Assembly: GCA_913052485.1 (NCBI GenBank)
Contig: CAJXDN010000003.1
Coordinates: forward strand, 68,602-108,832
Direction of reading: 5' to 3'
DNA: 40,231 nt
Source of the DNA: an uncultured Flammeovirgaceae bacterium
GTDB lineage: Bacteria > Bacteroidota > Bacteroidia > Cytophagales > MED-G16
The position numbers and the translations under genes were made by a program. The notes beneath the pieces are model-generated. The model made no database searches, was not told the origin of the DNA, and worked only from the letters and a program-made list of their open reading frames with translations. Each line of letters begins with the position of its first letter. Positions within the stretch are counted from its first letter, which is position 1. Shown piece by piece: positions 2,140 to 10,431 of this stretch.

Positions 2140-2153
2140 ATTTACTAAAAAAA

Positions 2154-2243
2154 GGCAAACTAGATTCGCACCGCTACAACCACTTACCCTTGCTTCTTTC
2201 CAGATCTGGGGGATTCAGCAGGAGCTGGTCGTACTAGCTTGCC
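2154..2243 (-). ncRNA. ffs: Signal recognition particle RNA (4.5S-like, bacterial small type)
   Basis: Read on the minus strand, the sequence contains the SRP helix-8 signature CAGATCTGGAAAGAAGCA. This matches the conserved Ffh-binding hairpin with its GGAA tetraloop and the symmetric and asymmetric internal loops, compared with the E. coli form CAGGTCCGGAAGGAAGCA. The ends GGCAAGCTAG and CTAGTTTGCC pair over 10 positions (one G-U), closing a ~90-nt hairpin. The 3' end runs into seven T, so the terminal helix can double as an intrinsic terminator. The RNA scaffolds Ffh for co-translational membrane targeting. The 5' end is set from the terminal helix and may be off by a few bases. Confidence 0.92.
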
Positions 2244-2247
2244 ACAT

Positions 2248-2255
2248 TAAAATTA
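2248..2255 (-). promoter_or_regulatory. Candidate -7 promoter element for SRP RNA
   Basis: On the minus strand this reads TAATTTTA, a 7-of-8 match to the Bacteroidota TAnnTTTG element. The first base of the SRP RNA (2243) lies 5 bases downstream, the expected distance to a transcription start. No clear TTTG -33 element is seen upstream in this very AT-rich stretch. Confidence 0.45.
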
Positions 2256-2309: not shown

Positions 2310-2969
2310 ATGAGGATAAAATTTTTAATATCGATACTCTCTTTTTTTCTTTTTTATTGTATCTCATCAGATGGTAAAAATAACGTTTCATTTGGCCTTT
2401 CATATTCATTAAACTCCTCAAATATTAATTTCTATAATAATTTTTTTCCTCAAAATATAAGAACCGAATCTTTTTCATCTTATAGCTTATCACTTTTTAC
2501 TGAAATAAAAAATCAAAAAAATACTGGTATTAGACTTGAAATATCACAAATGAAGAAAGGTTGGGTAGAATCCTATGACTCCGATATGATAAGTAATGAA
2601 TTTGATTTTATTAATATTCCGGTTTTGATGACGACTTATTTTGGGGGGAGAAAAATGAAAATAAATTTTTCAATTGGTCCGTATGCTGAATTTCAAATAA
2701 AAAACAATTCTAATATCATTAAAGATATGTATCCTAGTAAAGATATATTTTTTAATGAATTTAGAGATAATTCTTTTGGTTACGGGATTAAAGCAAGTGG
2801 GGGATTATCATTAGATATAAATAAGAGTTCATTCCTACTTCTTGTTTCGTATTTATACAACTTTGATAATTTAATTGACGTAAATCAAAAGACTAGTATG
2901 GTACCCGATATTTCAAGTTTTAGAACTCTTTCTTTTTCATTAGTATATTTACTTAATTTTAAAAGATGA
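2310..2969 (+). CDS. Outer-membrane beta-barrel protein (PorT-like family)
   Basis: A 219-residue protein with an N-terminal signal peptide (hydrophobic ~4-18). It has alternating beta-strand patterns with aromatic girdle residues (for example FGLSYSLN, TGIRLEISQMKKGW, KINFSIGPYAEF, FGYGIKASGGLSLDI) and a final strand ending in an aromatic-rich segment. This is the usual look of the small PorT/OmpW-like outer-membrane beta-barrels common in Bacteroidota. The substrate cannot be read from the sequence. Its stop codon overlaps the start of the alkane hydroxylase gene by 4 bases, so the two are co-transcribed and probably coupled in translation. Confidence 0.7.
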   Translation: MRIKFLISILSFFLFYCISSDGKNNVSFGLSYSLNSSNINFYNNFFPQNIRTESFSSYSLSLFTEIKNQKNTGIRLEISQMKKGWVESYDSDMISNEFDFINIPVLMTTYFGGRKMKINFSIGPYAEFQIKNNSNIIKDMYPSKDIFFNEFRDNSFGYGIKASGGLSLDINKSSFLLLVSYLYNFDNLIDVNQKTSMVPDISSFRTLSFSLVYLLNFKR

Positions 2970-4006
2970 AATATAAGTTTTTAAAATATTTTCTTACATT
3001 ATCTATTCCTTTTTTGGCATATGTATCATTCAACTCTACTGGTATTCTCACTTTTGCTCCAATTTTAGAGGCTTTTTTATTTATTCCACTACTCGAACTG
3101 TTTTTTAAACCTTCTAGTAAAAATATTTCTGAGGCAGAGGAGGAAATGGCAAAAAATGATATATCCTATGACATAATTTTATATCTGTTTGTACCACTTA
3201 TATATTTTTTAATCTGGGAGTTTTTAATCTCATTGCGTGATTCTATATCATTTACTGATAAAATCGGTAGAATATTATCAATGGGTTTGATATGTGGAGG
3301 CTTTGGTATAAATATCGCCCACGAATTGGGTCATAGGAAAACAAAATACGAGAAATTATTATCAAAAATATTATTGCTACCTTCTCTGTATATGCATTTT
3401 TTTATAGAACATAATAGAGGTCACCACAAACGGGTATCAACCAAAGAGGATCCTTCATCTGCACGATTTGGAGAAAACATATTTTCTTTCTGGTTAAGAG
3501 CGGTCTCATTTGGATATTTGTCAGCATGGAATTTAGAAAATAGTCGACTCAAGAGGAATGGAGGTAATGTAATTAGCATAAAGAATGAAATGATTATTTA
3601 TCAATTAATACAGTTTACTTTCTTAGCTTCAATATATCTAATTTTTGGATTTGAGATTATGTTATACTTTGTCTGCTGTTCTATTTTTGGTTTTCTTCTT
3701 CTTGAAACTGTAAACTATATTGAGCATTATGGACTTCAAAGAAATAAAAATGATAGGGGGAAATACGAGAGAGTTCAACCGTTCCATTCCTGGAATTCTA
3801 ATCATCCAGTGGGTAGAATCATGTTATTTGAACTTTCAAGACATTCTGATCACCATTTTAATGCATCAAGAAAATATCAGATTTTGAAAAATCATGATAA
3901 CACACCAGAGATGCCAACTGGCTATCCTGGTATGATGATATTATCATTAATCCCTCCATTATGGTTCTATGTCATGAATAGACAGGTAAAAAAATTTATA
4001 CATTGA
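2966..4006 (+). CDS. alkB: AlkB-type alkane 1-monooxygenase (membrane di-iron hydroxylase)
   Basis: A 346-residue integral membrane protein with all the AlkB histidine boxes in order: HELGH (119-123), EHNRGHH (149-155), NYIEHYG (250-256) and HSDHH (293-297). Hydrophobic segments at ~8-48, ~70-90, ~100-118 and ~212-250 are consistent with the six-helix AlkB fold. The family hydroxylates medium- to long-chain n-alkanes at the terminal carbon using O2 and electrons from rubredoxin; no rubredoxin or rubredoxin reductase gene is in the window. A related membrane fatty-acid hydroxylase or desaturase is less likely because the fourth-box sequence is the canonical AlkB one. It is coupled to the upstream beta-barrel gene by a 4-base overlap. 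Confidence 0.9.
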   Translation: MKYKFLKYFLTLSIPFLAYVSFNSTGILTFAPILEAFLFIPLLELFFKPSSKNISEAEEEMAKNDISYDIILYLFVPLIYFLIWEFLISLRDSISFTDKIGRILSMGLICGGFGINIAHELGHRKTKYEKLLSKILLLPSLYMHFFIEHNRGHHKRVSTKEDPSSARFGENIFSFWLRAVSFGYLSAWNLENSRLKRNGGNVISIKNEMIIYQLIQFTFLASIYLIFGFEIMLYFVCCSIFGFLLLETVNYIEHYGLQRNKNDRGKYERVQPFHSWNSNHPVGRIMLFELSRHSDHHFNASRKYQILKNHDNTPEMPTGYPGMMILSLIPPLWFYVMNRQVKKFIH

Positions 4007-4007
4007 T

Positions 4008-4038
4008 TTTGTAATTTAATTTTTAGGATATAATTTAG
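4008..4038 (+). promoter_or_regulatory. Candidate trp operon promoter
   Basis: A TTTG (4008-4011) and TAATTTAG (4031-4038) are separated by 19 bases. This matches the spacing of the Bacteroidota TTTG / TAnnTTTG promoter, with one mismatch in the -7 element. A start about 5 bases downstream would fall on the first base of the trp leader-peptide ATG (4043), giving a leaderless leader transcript. The element begins only 2 bases after the alkB stop. Confidence 0.5.
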
Positions 4039-4042
4039 TCTC

Positions 4043-4087
4043 ATGTTAAATATAAGTACTTGGTGGTCATATTATAATTCTATGTAA
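4043..4087 (+). CDS. trpL: trp operon leader peptide with tandem Trp codons
   Basis: A 14-codon open frame reading MLNISTWWSYYNSM then TAA. Two adjacent Trp codons (4061-4066) occur in a 14-residue peptide just ahead of a strong terminator and trpE, the classic design of a ribosome-mediated attenuator that senses charged tRNA-Trp. The strand around the first Trp codon (4056-4063) can pair with 4097-4105 over 8 base pairs with one bulge, giving a 1:2 helix that a stalled ribosome would block. No Shine-Dalgarno sequence precedes it, and the candidate promoter would start transcription at or near the ATG. Expression of the peptide is inferred. Confidence 0.8.
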   Translation: MLNISTWWSYYNSM

Positions 4088-4115
4088 AGCAGACAGCCTA
4101 AGTATATTATAATGC

Positions 4116-4147
4116 AAAACCCAAGCTCGAAGCTTGGGTTTTTTTGT
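4116..4147 (+). terminator. Rho-independent terminator/attenuator ahead of trpE
   Basis: A perfect 12-bp stem (4116-4127 with 4131-4142, three-base loop CGA) whose 3' arm runs into an unbroken run of T ending at 4145. The trpE ATG follows at 4149, so the terminator sits inside the trp leader and can only act as a conditional stop for the trp operon (and as the end of alkB read-through). An alternative pairing of 4095-4103 with the 3' arm (4132-4140; 9 pairs including three G-U) would break it. Confidence 0.9.
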
Positions 4148-4148
4148 T

Positions 4149-5537
4149 ATGAAAGTAAAGTCAAAATATTTAAAAATAATTTCAGATATACATACACCTG
4201 TTGGAGTATATCTTAAGCTCAGAGATTTATATTCTAAAGTTTTTCTTTTGGAGAGCTCTGATTATAAAGGCTCTGAAAATAGTTTATCATTTATTTGTTT
4301 TGACTCCAAAGCTCAATTTTCAGTTTATAATGATATTGTAAAAATGAGTTTTGATAGTAAGGAAGTAGATAAAAAAGTAGAAAACGATAGAGACATACCT
4401 TATTTTTTAAATTATTTCATTAACCAATTTAAAGTTGAAACAAATGAATTTGAATATCCATCAAATGGTTTATTTGGGTATATATCCTATGATTCTATAA
4501 AGTATTCGGATAATATTTCGATTTCTAACCCTAAAGAGATTAATATCCCAGAGATATTATACAATGCTTTTAAATATGTCATAGTTTTCAATCATTATAA
4601 TAATGAACTAATAATTTTTGAACATCTCTATGGAGATGATAATATTTCTGAAATTGAAAAAATTAAGAATATAGTATCAGGAAAACCAGTAAATCCATTC
4701 TCATTTAAAACAAATAAAGATGAGAGAACTAACTTATCAGATGTTGATTTTAAAAAATTAGTTGATAAGGGTATAAATCATTGTAAGCTGGGAGATGTTT
4801 TTCAAATCGTATTATCTAAAAGATTTTATCAAGATTTTCAAGGTGACGAATTTCAAGTTTACAGAGCACTGAGATCCATAAATCCTTCTCCATATCTATT
4901 TTATTTTGACTACGGAAGTTTTAAAATTTTTGGCAGCTCTCCTGAAGCTCAAATTGTAATTAAAAATGATAAGGCAACTATTTATCCTATTGCCGGTACA
5001 TTTAAGAGAACAGGTGATGATGAGAATGATAAAAAACAAGCAGAAAAATTATCAAATGACACAAAAGAAAATTCTGAGCATGTTATGTTAGTAGATTTAG
5101 CTAGGAATGATTTAAGCAAAATATCAAAAAATGTTGAAGTTGAAAGATTTAAAGACATCCAGTTTTATTCTCATGTTATTCATCTAGTATCTAAAGTGAC
5201 AGGAGATATTGCATCAGATAAAAAAATAGATTTGATTTCTGGAACTTTTCCTGCTGGCACTTTGTCAGGTGCTCCAAAACATAAGGCAATGCAACTTATA
5301 GAAGATCATGAAAATTTAAGTAGAGAATTTTATGGGGGAGCTATTGGGTTTATGGGATTTAATGGTGACTTCAACCATGCTATAATTATAAGATCATTTT
5401 TAAGTAAAAATAGAAGTTTATTCTATCAGGCTGGTGCTGGAATTGTTTTTAAATCAAATCCGGATAGTGAAAATCAAGAGGTTTATAATAAAATAGAAGC
5501 TTTGAGAAAAGCAATTAAAATTGCAGAGAGGATATGA
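4149..5537 (+). CDS. trpE: Anthranilate synthase component I
   Basis: A 462-residue enzyme that, with TrpG, converts chorismate to anthranilate, the first committed step of tryptophan synthesis. The N-terminal LLESSD motif (~38-43 from this start) matches the tryptophan feedback-binding site of TrpE. The C-terminal chorismate-binding domain shows GDVFQIVLSKRF, IAGTFKRTG, the metal-binding HVMLVDLARND block, and FPAGTLSGAPK. The start is taken at the ATG at 4149; an in-frame TTG at 4134 lies inside the terminator stem and is rejected. The stop overlaps the trpG ATG (ATGA). The LLESS motif and the attenuator together point to both enzymatic and transcriptional feedback by tryptophan. Confidence 0.96.
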   Translation: MKVKSKYLKIISDIHTPVGVYLKLRDLYSKVFLLESSDYKGSENSLSFICFDSKAQFSVYNDIVKMSFDSKEVDKKVENDRDIPYFLNYFINQFKVETNEFEYPSNGLFGYISYDSIKYSDNISISNPKEINIPEILYNAFKYVIVFNHYNNELIIFEHLYGDDNISEIEKIKNIVSGKPVNPFSFKTNKDERTNLSDVDFKKLVDKGINHCKLGDVFQIVLSKRFYQDFQGDEFQVYRALRSINPSPYLFYFDYGSFKIFGSSPEAQIVIKNDKATIYPIAGTFKRTGDDENDKKQAEKLSNDTKENSEHVMLVDLARNDLSKISKNVEVERFKDIQFYSHVIHLVSKVTGDIASDKKIDLISGTFPAGTLSGAPKHKAMQLIEDHENLSREFYGGAIGFMGFNGDFNHAIIIRSFLSKNRSLFYQAGAGIVFKSNPDSENQEVYNKIEALRKAIKIAERI

Positions 5538-6097
5538 GAATTTTAGTTTTAGATAATTATGATAGTTTCACTTATAATATTGTACATATTCTAAGGGAGT
5601 TAGATGGTTTGGATATATCAGTTATAAAAAATGATCTCATTAAGATGAATGATGTTCAGTCCTATGATAAAATTATTTTATCGCCTGGTCCATCACTCCC
5701 CAAAGATGCAGGGAAGATGAATAAATTAATTTCGAACTATTACCATAGCAAACCAATACTAGGCATATGTCTCGGTCATCAAGCCATTGCGGAAAATTTT
5801 GGAGGTAAATTGTATAATATGGATGAGCCATTGCATGGAGTTCAAACAGATATTTATTTAGAGGATGATTATATTTTCAAGGGTATTAAATCTAAAATTA
5901 AAGCTTGTAGATATCATTCATGGTCAGTAGTAAGTGATCCTTTGCCACAAGAGTTAAAAATAATTGCTAAAGATTCTGAGGGTGTGATTATGGCCCTATC
6001 TCATAAAAAATTTGATTTAAAGGGTATACAGTTTCACCCTGAATCTATTCAGACAAAAACTGGTTTTAATATGATACAAAATTTTATAAATAATTAA
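5534..6097 (+). CDS. trpG: Anthranilate synthase component II (glutamine amidotransferase)
   Basis: A 187-residue class I glutamine amidotransferase that supplies ammonia to TrpE. The sequence shows the conserved start LVLDNYDSFTYN, the oxyanion region ILSPGP, the nucleophile cysteine in GICLGHQAIAE, and the C-terminal FHPESI carrying the catalytic His and Glu. Length is normal for a free-standing TrpG. No separate pabA/pabB is seen here, so the subunit might also serve p-aminobenzoate synthesis, as in some other bacteria; that is an inference. It overlaps trpE by 4 bases and ends 1 base before trpD. Confidence 0.95.
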   Translation: MRILVLDNYDSFTYNIVHILRELDGLDISVIKNDLIKMNDVQSYDKIILSPGPSLPKDAGKMNKLISNYYHSKPILGICLGHQAIAENFGGKLYNMDEPLHGVQTDIYLEDDYIFKGIKSKIKACRYHSWSVVSDPLPQELKIIAKDSEGVIMALSHKKFDLKGIQFHPESIQTKTGFNMIQNFINN

Positions 6098-6098
6098 T

Positions 6099-7091
6099 AT
6101 GAAAAATTTACTTAAAGATTTATATAATCATAAGATAATGAGTAAAGATGAGTCAAAGGCTGCTTTAATATCTTTGACAGATGGAAGTGCAAATAATTCT
6201 CAGATATCTTCGTTTCTTACAGTTTTTTTAATGAGAGATATAACATCTGAGGAACTTGATGGTTTCAGGCAGGCAATGATTGAACTATCTCTTGATGTAG
6301 ATATTGATGGTGATGAATTAATAGATTTATGTGGAACAGGAGGTGATGGAAAAGACACATTTAATATCTCAACAATTTCATCTTTTGTAGTAGCAGGTGC
6401 AGGCATTAAAGTAGCTAAACATGGAAATTACGGTGTTTCATCTTCGTGTGGTTCATCTAATATTATTTCCCACTTAGGACACAAATTTTCGAATGATGTT
6501 AATTCCCTAAAATATAGTCTCGATAAATCAAATATATGTTTTTTACATGCTCCATTATTTCACCCTTCTCTAAAAAATATTTCTCCGATAAGAAGTGAAT
6601 TAGGTGTAAAAACATTTTTTAATATGCTAGGACCAATGGTAAACCCAATTCAGCCAAAAAGTCAATTAGTTGGAGTTTTTAATTCAAATATTTTTAGACT
6701 TTATTCACATATCTATAGTAAAACTGATAAAAACTATTGTATTGTCCATAGCATAGATGGTTATGATGAAGTTTCTTTGACTGGAGCTTTTAAATTATTT
6801 TCTAATAATCATGATATAATGTTAGAACCTAAAGATTTAGATTTTAATTTAATTAATTCTAAGAATCTGAGTGGAGGGAAAAATATTGAAGAGTCCTCTA
6901 AAATTTTTTTAGATATTTTAAAAAATAATGGAACTAGGGAGCAAGTTGATGCTGTTCTAGCCAATTCAGGCTTAGCAATTTATTGTGCAAAACAACTTAC
7001 TTCTATTAAAGAAGGTATAGAAATAGCTAGAGAATCATTGGAATCTGGAAAAGCATACAATTGTTTAAAGCTTTTTATTGAAAATAAATGA
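6099..7091 (+). CDS. trpD: Anthranilate phosphoribosyltransferase
   Basis: A 330-residue enzyme joining anthranilate to PRPP. Diagnostic blocks are the glycine-rich PRPP loop DLCGTGGDGKDTFNIST, KHGNYGVSSSCGSSN (the family has KHGNRxxSSxxGSAD), and the NPIQPKSQLVGVF region corresponding to the NPAxxxxQxxGV block. In KHGNYG the usual Arg after Asn is Tyr and in CGSSN the usual Ala-Asp is Ser-Asn, so this copy is slightly divergent at the substrate site. The stop overlaps trpC by 4 bases. It is the third gene of the trp operon. Confidence 0.95.
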   Translation: MKNLLKDLYNHKIMSKDESKAALISLTDGSANNSQISSFLTVFLMRDITSEELDGFRQAMIELSLDVDIDGDELIDLCGTGGDGKDTFNISTISSFVVAGAGIKVAKHGNYGVSSSCGSSNIISHLGHKFSNDVNSLKYSLDKSNICFLHAPLFHPSLKNISPIRSELGVKTFFNMLGPMVNPIQPKSQLVGVFNSNIFRLYSHIYSKTDKNYCIVHSIDGYDEVSLTGAFKLFSNNHDIMLEPKDLDFNLINSKNLSGGKNIEESSKIFLDILKNNGTREQVDAVLANSGLAIYCAKQLTSIKEGIEIARESLESGKAYNCLKLFIENK

Positions 7092-7861
7092 GTATACTAA
7101 AAGAAATTATTTTAAATAAAAGAAAAGAGATTGATTATCTTAAAAAAAATAATACTATTTCTGAAATTGAAAAATCTTTATTTTTTGATAGAGAAGTTAT
7201 ATCTCTTAAAAAATCATTAATTGAAAAGTCTGGTATTATTTCTGAATTTAAAAGAAAATCTCCATCTAAGCCAAATATAAATTTAGATGCAGATGTACAA
7301 AAAATAACAAGAGGATATGAAATTTCTAATTCTAGTGGGCTATCAATTTTAACTGATTCAAAATATTTTGGAGGATCTAATGAGGATATTACCCAAGTTA
7401 GAAACGAAATAAAAATTCCCATTTTAAGAAAAGATTTTATATTAGGGGAATATCAGATTGTAGAGTCTAAATCTTTGGGTGCTGATATTATACTATTAAT
7501 TGCAGCTTGCCTATCAAAAGAAGAAGTTAAGAATCTGTCAAGATTTGCTCAGTCTTTTAATTTACAGGTAATTTTAGAAATTCATTCAGAGGATGAGTTA
7601 TCTCATTTATGTGATTCTATAGATGTGGTAGGAGTAAATAATAGAAATTTAAAAAAATTTGAAACTGACATTAATAATTCAATAAACTTAGCAGGTATGA
7701 TCCCTTCAGGTTTTTTAAAAATATCTGAAAGTGGAATATCTACTTCTAAGGAAATTTTTCTATTAAAAGAATATGGCTATGATGGTTTTTTAATTGGTGA
7801 AAAATTCATGAAAAATAATGACCCAGTATCCGCATGTAATGACTTTATAAAAGAATTATGA
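7088..7861 (+). CDS. trpC: Indole-3-glycerol-phosphate synthase
   Basis: A 257-residue TIM-barrel enzyme that closes the indole ring of carboxyphenylamino-deoxyribulose phosphate. Seen are IISEFKRKSPS (active-site Glu and Lys), LSILTDSKYFGGS, IPILRKDFIL (catalytic Lys), ESKSLGADIILLIAA, VGVNNRNLKKFETD, and the phosphate site ISESGI with GFLIGEKFM. The length is standard for a mono-functional TrpC; TrpF is a separate downstream gene rather than a fusion as in enterobacteria. It overlaps both neighbours by 4 bases, so ribosomes probably pass directly from gene to gene. Confidence 0.96.
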   Translation: MSILKEIILNKRKEIDYLKKNNTISEIEKSLFFDREVISLKKSLIEKSGIISEFKRKSPSKPNINLDADVQKITRGYEISNSSGLSILTDSKYFGGSNEDITQVRNEIKIPILRKDFILGEYQIVESKSLGADIILLIAACLSKEEVKNLSRFAQSFNLQVILEIHSEDELSHLCDSIDVVGVNNRNLKKFETDINNSINLAGMIPSGFLKISESGISTSKEIFLLKEYGYDGFLIGEKFMKNNDPVSACNDFIKEL

Positions 7862-8484
7862 TTAATAGGTACAGAATTAAAGTTTGTGGTATAACGGATG
7901 AAAATAACTTTTCTGAGTTAAAAAAATATCAAATAGACTACTTTGGATTTATTTTTTATAAAAAATCTCCAAGATATATTTTGAATAATCCTGATCATGC
8001 TTTTATTAAAAATATAAATAATAAAGTTGCTGTTTTTGTTGATGAGAATATTCATACTGTAATAAGAACATTAGAAAAGTATGATTTTTCTTACGTACAG
8101 TTACACGGTAATGAGAGTAGTGATTATTGTATGGAACTTAAAAAGAAGGGAATTAAAATAATTAAGTCCTATTTAATAAGAACACAAGAAGACCTTCATA
8201 GTATAAAGTTAGATAAAGAATCAGCTGATTATTTTCTATTTGATTATAAGAGTGATAAATATGGAGGATCTGGAAAAACTTTTAATTGGGAAATACTAAA
8301 CAACAAAGATTTTGATAAACCTTTTTTTCTTAGTGGGGGTTTATCCTTAGATAATCTCAATAATATTAATATGATTAATGATAATGAAATGCTTTATGGC
8401 CTAGATTTAAATAGTAAATTTGAAAAATCTCCTGGCTTAAAAGATGTTGAAAAAATTGGTAAATTATTTAATTTGAATTTATGA
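7858..8484 (+). CDS. trpF: Phosphoribosylanthranilate isomerase
   Basis: A 208-residue TIM-barrel isomerase, third step after anthranilate. It shows the family start [10 protein letters not shown] (catalytic Cys), [22 protein letters not shown], then [20 protein letters not shown]-like (catalytic Asp; the central part reads [17 protein letters not shown]) and the phosphate site FLSGGL. Length is normal. It overlaps trpC and trpB by 4 bases each. Confidence 0.95.
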
Positions 8485-9659
8485 AATATAATGTAAACAG
8501 TAATGGTTTTTACGGTGATTTTGGAGGTGCCTATATACCTGAAATGCTATTTTCAAACATAGACGAACTTAGAAAAAATTATCTAAGCATAGTTGAGAAA
8601 GATTCTTTCACTAGAGAGTTCAATTTTTATCTTAAGAAATATGTTGGTAGGCCTACACCATTATATTATGCTAAGAGATTATCAGAAAAATATGGATCGA
8701 AAATCTATTTAAAAAGAGAGGACTTATGTCATACTGGTGCACACAAAATAAATAATACAATAGGGCAAATTTTATTAGCTAGAGAGCTGAAAAAAACAAA
8801 GATAATTGCAGAAACTGGAGCGGGTCAACATGGTGTTGCAACAGCTACAGTGTGTGCTCTTATGGGAATGGAGTGTGTAATTTATATGGGTGAAGTTGAT
8901 ATTGAAAGACAAAGACCGAATGTAGAGAGAATGAGGATACTTGGTGCTGAGGTAAGACCTGCCACATCAGGTAGTCGCACTTTAAAAGATGCCACTAATG
9001 AGGCAATGAGACACTGGATAAATAATCCTGACGACACACATTACATTATTGGATCAGTTGTTGGTCCGCATCCATACCCTGATATGGTTGCTAGATTTCA
9101 GTCAGTTATATCTGAGGAATTGTTAGGTCAACTAAAAAAAGTTGAGGGGAGAGATTATCCTGACTTCGTCATAGCGTGTGTGGGTGGAGGAAGTAATGCA
9201 GCAGGTATTTTCTATCATTATCTTGAAAACCCTAAGGTTAAGTTAGTTGGGGTAGAGGCAGCCGGTCTTGGAGTATCTACAGATAAATCTGCAGCAACAA
9301 CAAAACTTGGGAAGAAAGGAGTTTTACATGGAAGCAAGACATTATTAATGCAAGATGAAAACGGTCAAGTAACAGAGCCCTATTCTATATCAGCTGGGCT
9401 TGATTATCCTGGAATAGGACCTTTACATGCTCACCTTTTTGACTCTAAACGAGGTGTTTATGTTAGTGTAGAGGACGATGAGGCTATGAATGCAGGAATT
9501 GAACTTAGTAGATTAGAAGGAATTATTCCTGCTATAGAGACTGCTCATGCTTTTTCTATTTTTGATAAGATAGATATGAAACGTAAAGTTATTGTAATTA
9601 ATTTATCCGGAAGGGGTGATAAAGACCTTGAAACATATATTAAATGGGGTAAATATTAA
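8481..9659 (+). CDS. trpB: Tryptophan synthase beta chain
   Basis: A 392-residue PLP enzyme condensing indole with serine. The PLP lysine lies in [13 protein letters not shown]; the catalytic Glu is in AETGAGQHG; the phosphate-binding GGGSNAAG loop and the C-terminal NLSGRGDKD are all present. It has the lengths and motifs of the TrpB1 type, which forms an alpha2-beta2 complex with TrpA, encoded one base downstream. Its base composition is a little richer in G and C than the neighbouring trp genes, as expected from stronger protein conservation. Confidence 0.97.
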
Positions 9660-9660
9660 T

Positions 9661-10431
9661 ATGAATAGAATTAATAAATTATTCAAGGAAAAAAAAGATA
9701 AAATTCTTAGCATTTATTTTACTGCAGGTTATCCAAATTTAAATGATACTACAGAAATTATTAAAATCTTAGATGAGTGTGGTGTTGACCTGATAGAGGT
9801 AGGGATGCCATTTTCTGATCCTATTGCTGATGGACCTGTCATCCAACACTCATCAAATGTAGCAATTGATAATGGAATGAACTTAAATTTATTATTTAAT
9901 CAATTAGATGAAATTAGAAAAATAACTGATATTCCCATTGTCCTAATGGGTTATGTGAACCCAGTGTACCAGTTCGGTTATGAAAAGTTCATAAAAAATA
10001 TCTTGAAATGTGATTTAGATGGTCTTATTTTACCCGATCTCCCATTAGATGATTACATAAATGAATTTAAACCAATTTTTGATAGGGAAAATCTATCATT
10101 TATTCCTCTAATTACCCCAAATACTTCTGAAGAAAGAATCAGACAAATTGATAGTAACTCTAATGGATTTATATACATGGTTTCTTCATCATCAATAACA
10201 GGTAAAAAGAATAGTTTTGATGATAAACAAATAGATTATTTTCAGAAAATTAGTAGTTTATCTTTGAAAAATCCCACGATTATTGGTTTTGGAATTTCAG
10301 ATAAAGAATCTTTTGAACAAGCTTGCAAGTATTCAAAGGGTGCGATAATTGGTTCTAAGTTTATCAAAGAAATTTCAAATGTAAATTTAAATGAATCTAT
10401 AAAAAACTTTATTTTAAGTGTAAGATCTTAA
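9661..10431 (+). CDS. trpA: Tryptophan synthase alpha chain
   Basis: A 256-residue TIM-barrel lyase releasing indole from indole-3-glycerol phosphate. The catalytic Glu and Asp are in LIEVGMPFSDPIADGPVIQ, with further family blocks at VLMGYVNPVYQFG, LILPDLPLDD and the phosphate site IIGFGISDK. The start is the ATG at 9661, one base after the trpB stop; an in-frame start further upstream (9616) would overlap trpB and adds residues unlike the family. It is the last gene of the operon; its stop overlaps that of the convergent DUF3127 gene, and no hairpin terminator is visible at the junction. Confidence 0.95.
   Translation: MNRINKLFKEKKDKILSIYFTAGYPNLNDTTEIIKILDECGVDLIEVGMPFSDPIADGPVIQHSSNVAIDNGMNLNLLFNQLDEIRKITDIPIVLMGYVNPVYQFGYEKFIKNILKCDLDGLILPDLPLDDYINEFKPIFDRENLSFIPLITPNTSEERIRQIDSNSNGFIYMVSSSSITGKKNSFDDKQIDYFQKISSLSLKNPTIIGFGISDKESFEQACKYSKGAIIGSKFIKEISNVNLNESIKNFILSVRS

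Follow-up and report, generated by a model that had tools for sequence, protein, structure and literature searches.

Described trp leader systems

The trp leader of Escherichia coli has 14 codons with tandem Trp codons, a 1:2 pairing and a terminator before trpE, and in other organisms trp genes are controlled by TRAP and T-box systems. Ribosome-mediated attenuation was long ascribed to Proteobacteria and Actinobacteria (PMC2965389). In Sinorhizobium meliloti, rnTrpL/peTrpL is a 14-aa Trp leader whose transcript begins at its ATG (PMC7298713). In the literature searched, ribosome-mediated attenuation in Bacteroidota rests on a computational candidate family, the Bacteroid-trp RNA (Rfam RF01692), which is a candidate cis-regulatory RNA of the phylum (Weinberg et al. 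2010, PMC2864571) and was mentioned for Flavobacterium psychrophilum (PMC6414381).

The kind of element described here is already known in the phylum through RF01692 and is found here in a lineage that the Rfam model misses. Very probably the trpEGDCFBA operon is controlled by ribosome-mediated transcription attenuation at this element, because the leader frame, the Trp codons, their fixed spacing, the 1:2 pairing, the terminator and the link to trpE are conserved. A sequence-only reading of the same DNA had seen a complete trp attenuator in which a Trp-codon strand is set against a terminator, and the conservation of the leader frame, Trp codons, 1:2 pairing and terminator bore this out.

Locus and host genome

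The window, i.e. the whole stretch of DNA analysed, was 40,231 nt long, and coordinates are given on its forward (+) strand unless marked otherwise. The ORFs and Pfam matches downstream of the leader showed a trp operon in the order trpE, trpG, trpD, trpC, trpF, trpB and trpA. The first gene of the operon under the proposed control, trpE (4149-5537), matched Anth_synt_I_N and Chorismate_bind, and the other six genes followed head to tail (5534-10431). An FA_desaturase-family gene (2966-4006) lay directly upstream of the leader and adjoined it in all ten family members, where its C-terminal sequence was recognisable. In addition, a Bacteroidales small SRP RNA (RF04183, 76 bits) was located about 1.9 kb upstream of the leader at 2149-2251 (-).

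The source assembly had 1.19 Mb and was 78% complete. The genome had been taken for flavobacterium-like from the sequence alone, but the host belongs to Cytophagales (Marinoscillum-like) and not to Flavobacteriia, with uncultured Marinoscillum and Flammeovirgaceae assemblies as its nearest named relatives. Genomes of the order are mostly large. Within the family set, trpE was present in 12 of 15 genomes and its upstream region in ten, so that ten leaders were compared, that of the window being L001. Three genomes of the same genus (G007, G010 and G011) were without a trpE match, and G007, at 93% completeness, points to a possible tryptophan auxotroph in the window's genus.

Leader ORF and candidate promoter

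The leader ORF trpL, MLNISTWWSYYNSM (4043-4087), consisted of 14 codons and TAA, with the ATG at 4043, the stop codon at 4085-4087 and the tandem Trp codons TGG TGG, the proposed sensor, at 4061-4066. The distance from the leader stop to the start of trpE was 61 nt, with the terminator in between. Both the 14-codon peptide and its tandem Trp codons had been noticed from the sequence, and both were kept in the relatives. Alignment of the regions upstream of trpE, a check suggested by the same reading and carried out here on the family members, showed an intact frame, a length of 14 codons and invariant Trp at codons 7 and 8 in 10/10 leaders. All other positions except the start varied, e.g. WWSYYNSM, WWQIIYLY and WWLYFIYR. 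Since the frame and the Trp positions were fixed while the peptide changed, selection appears to act on the position of the ribosome and not on the peptide, and the conservation of the frame suggests that the leader ORF is translated.

An ORF of 8-40 aa with WW followed by a terminator occurred a single time in the 40 kb and in 0 of 15 first-order Markov simulations. Upstream of trpE, a WW or WWW leader ORF was present in 64 of the 80 other genomes examined in the order and, among the further named Bacteroidota, in 64 of 68. A terminator followed in most cases, and shuffled upstream controls gave 6 of 550. A covariance model of the family leader (R1) gave strong matches solely in front of trpE, and its weak extra matches (E 1e-4 to 0.01) included antisense ones over the same terminator. 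Two successive Trp leader ORFs were found upstream of trpE in three Fulvivirga loci (L115, L129 and L138), those of L115 being MKNNFFNSAWWWHFTKL and MTIFIAKTTKAWWWHFNHFQ; from their sequence, these are possible tandem attenuators.

The -7 promoter consensus of Bacteroidota is TAnnTTTG, and the candidate -33 element was also judged against the promoter consensus of the phylum. This element, TTTTG (4007-4011), was located directly 3' of the stop codon of the FA_desaturase-family gene, and a T-rich TTTG resembling it was present in most family members. The candidate -7 element TAATTTAG (4031-4038) kept its position and spacing in 10/10 family members, always 4 nt from the leader ATG. Given a -7-like box at this distance, the transcription start is probably on the ATG or adjacent to it, and the leader ORF would probably be leaderless (without a 5' untranslated region).

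Strand 1:2 pairing and terminator

Strand 1 (4056-4068), which holds the Trp codons, was paired with strand 2 (4092-4105) in the minimum-free-energy fold, and the pairing was conserved in the family. The shorter helix drawn by the sequence-only reading, 4056-4063 with 4097-4105, was contained in this fold and extended by GUC/GAC. The energy of the 1:2 pairing was -9.8 to -13.3 kcal/mol in 10/10 family members, and in 8/10 it was better than with shuffled partners (p ≤ 0.05). Among the ten family sequences, 92% of the cells of the helix were paired; for the 1:2 helix together with the terminator this was 95.6%, compared to 26-50% when the structure was slid along the alignment. Covariation was thin, with one pair changed on both sides, because only ten sequences were available. 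The sensor codons are thus part of a strand with a downstream pairing partner, as in trp-type attenuators.

The intrinsic terminator (4116-4142) formed a 12-bp stem (4116-4127 with 4131-4142) with a 3-nt loop (4128-4130) and a T7 tract (4139-4145) which ended 3 nt before the trpE ATG (4149), as had been read directly from the sequence. Its stability in the window was -18.3 kcal/mol, and the fold of the surrounding 141-nt stretch reached -32.7 kcal/mol (z = -2.83). The inner nine pairs were 100% paired in the ten family sequences, and the CCCAAGC..GCTTGGG inner stem was unique to this site in each of the nine family genomes having the motif. The complete terminator was the most stable end state in every family member, which means that control would have to be kinetic. 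The distance between the T-run and the trpE ATG was always 3 nt in the family, and the hairpin ended 6 nt before the trpE start (4139-4160). In read-through transcripts, a refolded hairpin could hinder the loading of ribosomes on trpE. In other members of the order, the terminator sits further upstream of trpE. Finally, the arm sequence (4116-4142) was almost invariant in the family, although terminator function alone needs complementarity only; this suggests either a second partner or a recent common origin.

Proposed mechanism

Coupling, stalling and the direction of control are inferred here. A ribosome would translate the 14-codon peptide behind RNA polymerase on a transcript whose 5' end is probably on the leader ATG or adjacent to it. 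With ample Trp-tRNA it would pass TGG TGG, reach the stop codon at 4085-4087 and cover the segment behind it; alternatively it would be released and strand 1 would pair with strand 2. By either route the terminator (4116-4142) would form and transcription would end before trpE. When Trp-tRNA is scarce, the ribosome would stall on the Trp codons and cover strand 1, and the freed segment just behind the stop codon would disturb the terminator, and the operon would be read.

Antiterminator

In other Bacteroidota, the region of the leader stop could often pair with the loop of the terminator and the first part of its 3' arm, by sequences that differed between groups: UCGUGA/UCACGA, CGUGAACU/AGUUCAUG, AUUGAGUGA/UCACUCAGU and CUGAACAGC/GCUGUUUAG. 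A Watson-Crick helix of at least 6 pairs between the stop region and the terminator was present in 75% of the named Bacteroidota set (6% when shuffled) and in 31% of the order set (5% when shuffled). Of the stop-region helices with at least 6 pairs, 73 of 87 reached the terminator 3' arm. To judge from these complementarities, an antiterminator of strand 2 with the loop and strand 4 is common in the phylum. An antiterminator reaching strand 4 had been called unusual from the sequence alone; strand 4 is indeed reached in the phylum, but so commonly that it is not unusual there.

In the window's family, three of ten members retained a helix between the stop region and the terminator (L004, with UAAGCGGUU/AACUGCUUG, L007 and L012). 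The window and its closest relatives had just AAGC/GCUU and AGC(U)/(A)GCU pieces, which is chance level. By reference to the relatives, the counterpart of the antiterminator strand (strand 2a) was placed at 4087-4098 in the window, and its pairing with the terminator apex (4124-4135) was no better there than with shuffled sequences (p = 0.51). This pair is nevertheless put forward as the window's candidate antiterminator, because the antiterminator sits there in other Bacteroidota and in three family members; the assignment is tentative and rather doubtful. When growing transcripts were folded without constraints and the stalled ribosome was masked, the antiterminator was a transient best state in approximately 7 of 10 members, weakly in some, and this state was absent in L001 (the window), L002 and L005. 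In a test with swaps between family members, this antiterminator had no clear specificity.

The sequence-only reading had proposed a different antiterminator for an otherwise identical attenuator, in which a ribosome stalled at the Trp codons lets 4095-4103 pair with 4132-4140, the terminator 3' arm. This pairing could indeed be drawn (9 pairs, three G-U), and in the window it was strong (-11.5 to -11.9 kcal/mol; p = 0.03 compared to shuffles); the almost invariant terminator arms in the family could also mean such a second partner. However, in nine relatives it reached only -1.7 to -5.2 kcal/mol, and as a conserved antiterminator it was rejected, being strong in the window alone. It is also weaker than the terminator and would be formed later. 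In the fold with the leader masked, as had been recommended, the stalled ribosome did not save it, and the terminator won once its 3' arm emerged. The strength in the window came from AGCCUAAG, where the relatives have AGCUAAAG or similar. Strand 2 is complementary to the CUUGG of strand 1. This motif also happens to occur in strand 4 of the terminator, and the simplest explanation is that the pairing is a side effect of its double presence. Overall, control by this pairing is considered unlikely.

Two other pairings were tried and rejected. A 2:3 antiterminator as in E. coli had only -2.5 kcal/mol in the window. A 1:3 pairing of CUUGG with CCAAG (-6.6 kcal/mol) would be blocked by the stalled ribosome and would act in the wrong direction, and its outer pair was lost in some relatives.

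The comparison across Bacteroidota leads to a wider proposal, which we regard as evenly balanced. The trp attenuators of the phylum may have a common type of antiterminator: RNA at and just behind the leader stop would invade the terminator loop and 3' arm (2:loop-4 and not 2:3 as in enterobacteria), and a ribosome on the stop codon would mask exactly the invading strand. In the marine Cytophagales lineage of the window, the leader would then have been shortened, apparently with loss of its 5' untranslated region, and this helix would have been weakened or replaced.

Alternative explanations

The terminator could instead be constitutive, with the small ORF aiding trpE translation by reinitiation or setting a basal level of expression, and with no response to tryptophan. 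Reinitiation has been proposed as the mode of action of leader genes near structural genes (PMC4833913), and in all members no state was more stable than the terminator. Against this, the 61 nt between the leader stop and trpE contain the terminator, and there would be no reason for the tandem Trp codons to stay invariant while the rest of the peptide changes. We find this explanation improbable, more so than the alternative antiterminator above. Control of the terminator by a protein or a tRNA (TRAP or T-box) rather than by the leader ribosome, as such systems do for trp genes elsewhere, is very improbable. The conservation of the codons and of the frame speaks for translation, and searches for a T-box (RF00230, covariance model) and for a Trp repressor gave no match in the assembly, which is 78% complete.

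Significance

Ribosome-mediated attenuation thus remains the preferred reading of the locus. Trp leader ORFs stood before trpE in most genomes examined of the order and of further Bacteroidota, far beyond the 7 of 194 genomes of the order that passed the cut-off of the RF01692 model. If the reading is true, the coupling of ribosome and RNA polymerase in the phylum would be close enough for a stalled ribosome to decide on termination. The helix between the stop-codon region and the terminator loop is the most interesting by-product of the analysis, as a concrete pairing that is open to mutation.

Comparison with known systems

Compared to RF01692, the window element belongs to the same phylum, is located upstream of trp genes and has a Trp-rich leader with a terminator behind it. 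In both, the Trp-codon strand forms a hairpin with RNA 3' of the leader, and the flanking pairs are similar (AAAUAC...GUAUAU in the model, AAUAC...GUAUU in the window). In a search of 211 nt, the window scored 20.7 bits against the model (E = 4.5), below the cut-off of 49 bits. The window has two Trp codons where many RF01692 relatives have three, and its leader-to-trpE distance is 106 nt, compared to about 135-330 in most relatives. Its ORF apparently has no 5' untranslated region, and its terminator lies directly against trpE. No antiterminator is marked in the structure line of the RF01692 model.

The E. coli trp attenuator (RF00513, Trp_leader) shares with the window the tandem Trp codons, the 14-codon leader, the 1:2 pairing and the terminator before trpE. 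Its antiterminator is 2:3, whereas the Bacteroidota version reaches the terminator loop and 3' arm. The window scored 14.5 bits against RF00513, below the cut-off of 41, and no sequence homology is claimed. The rnTrpL/peTrpL of S. meliloti is similarly a 14-aa Trp leader at the transcript start, a position which for the window is judged from the promoter-like box 4 nt upstream; it is alphaproteobacterial, and no relation to the window leader is claimed. Overall, the window element is by score a member of neither Bacteroid-trp nor the E. coli trp leader, and it would work like both.
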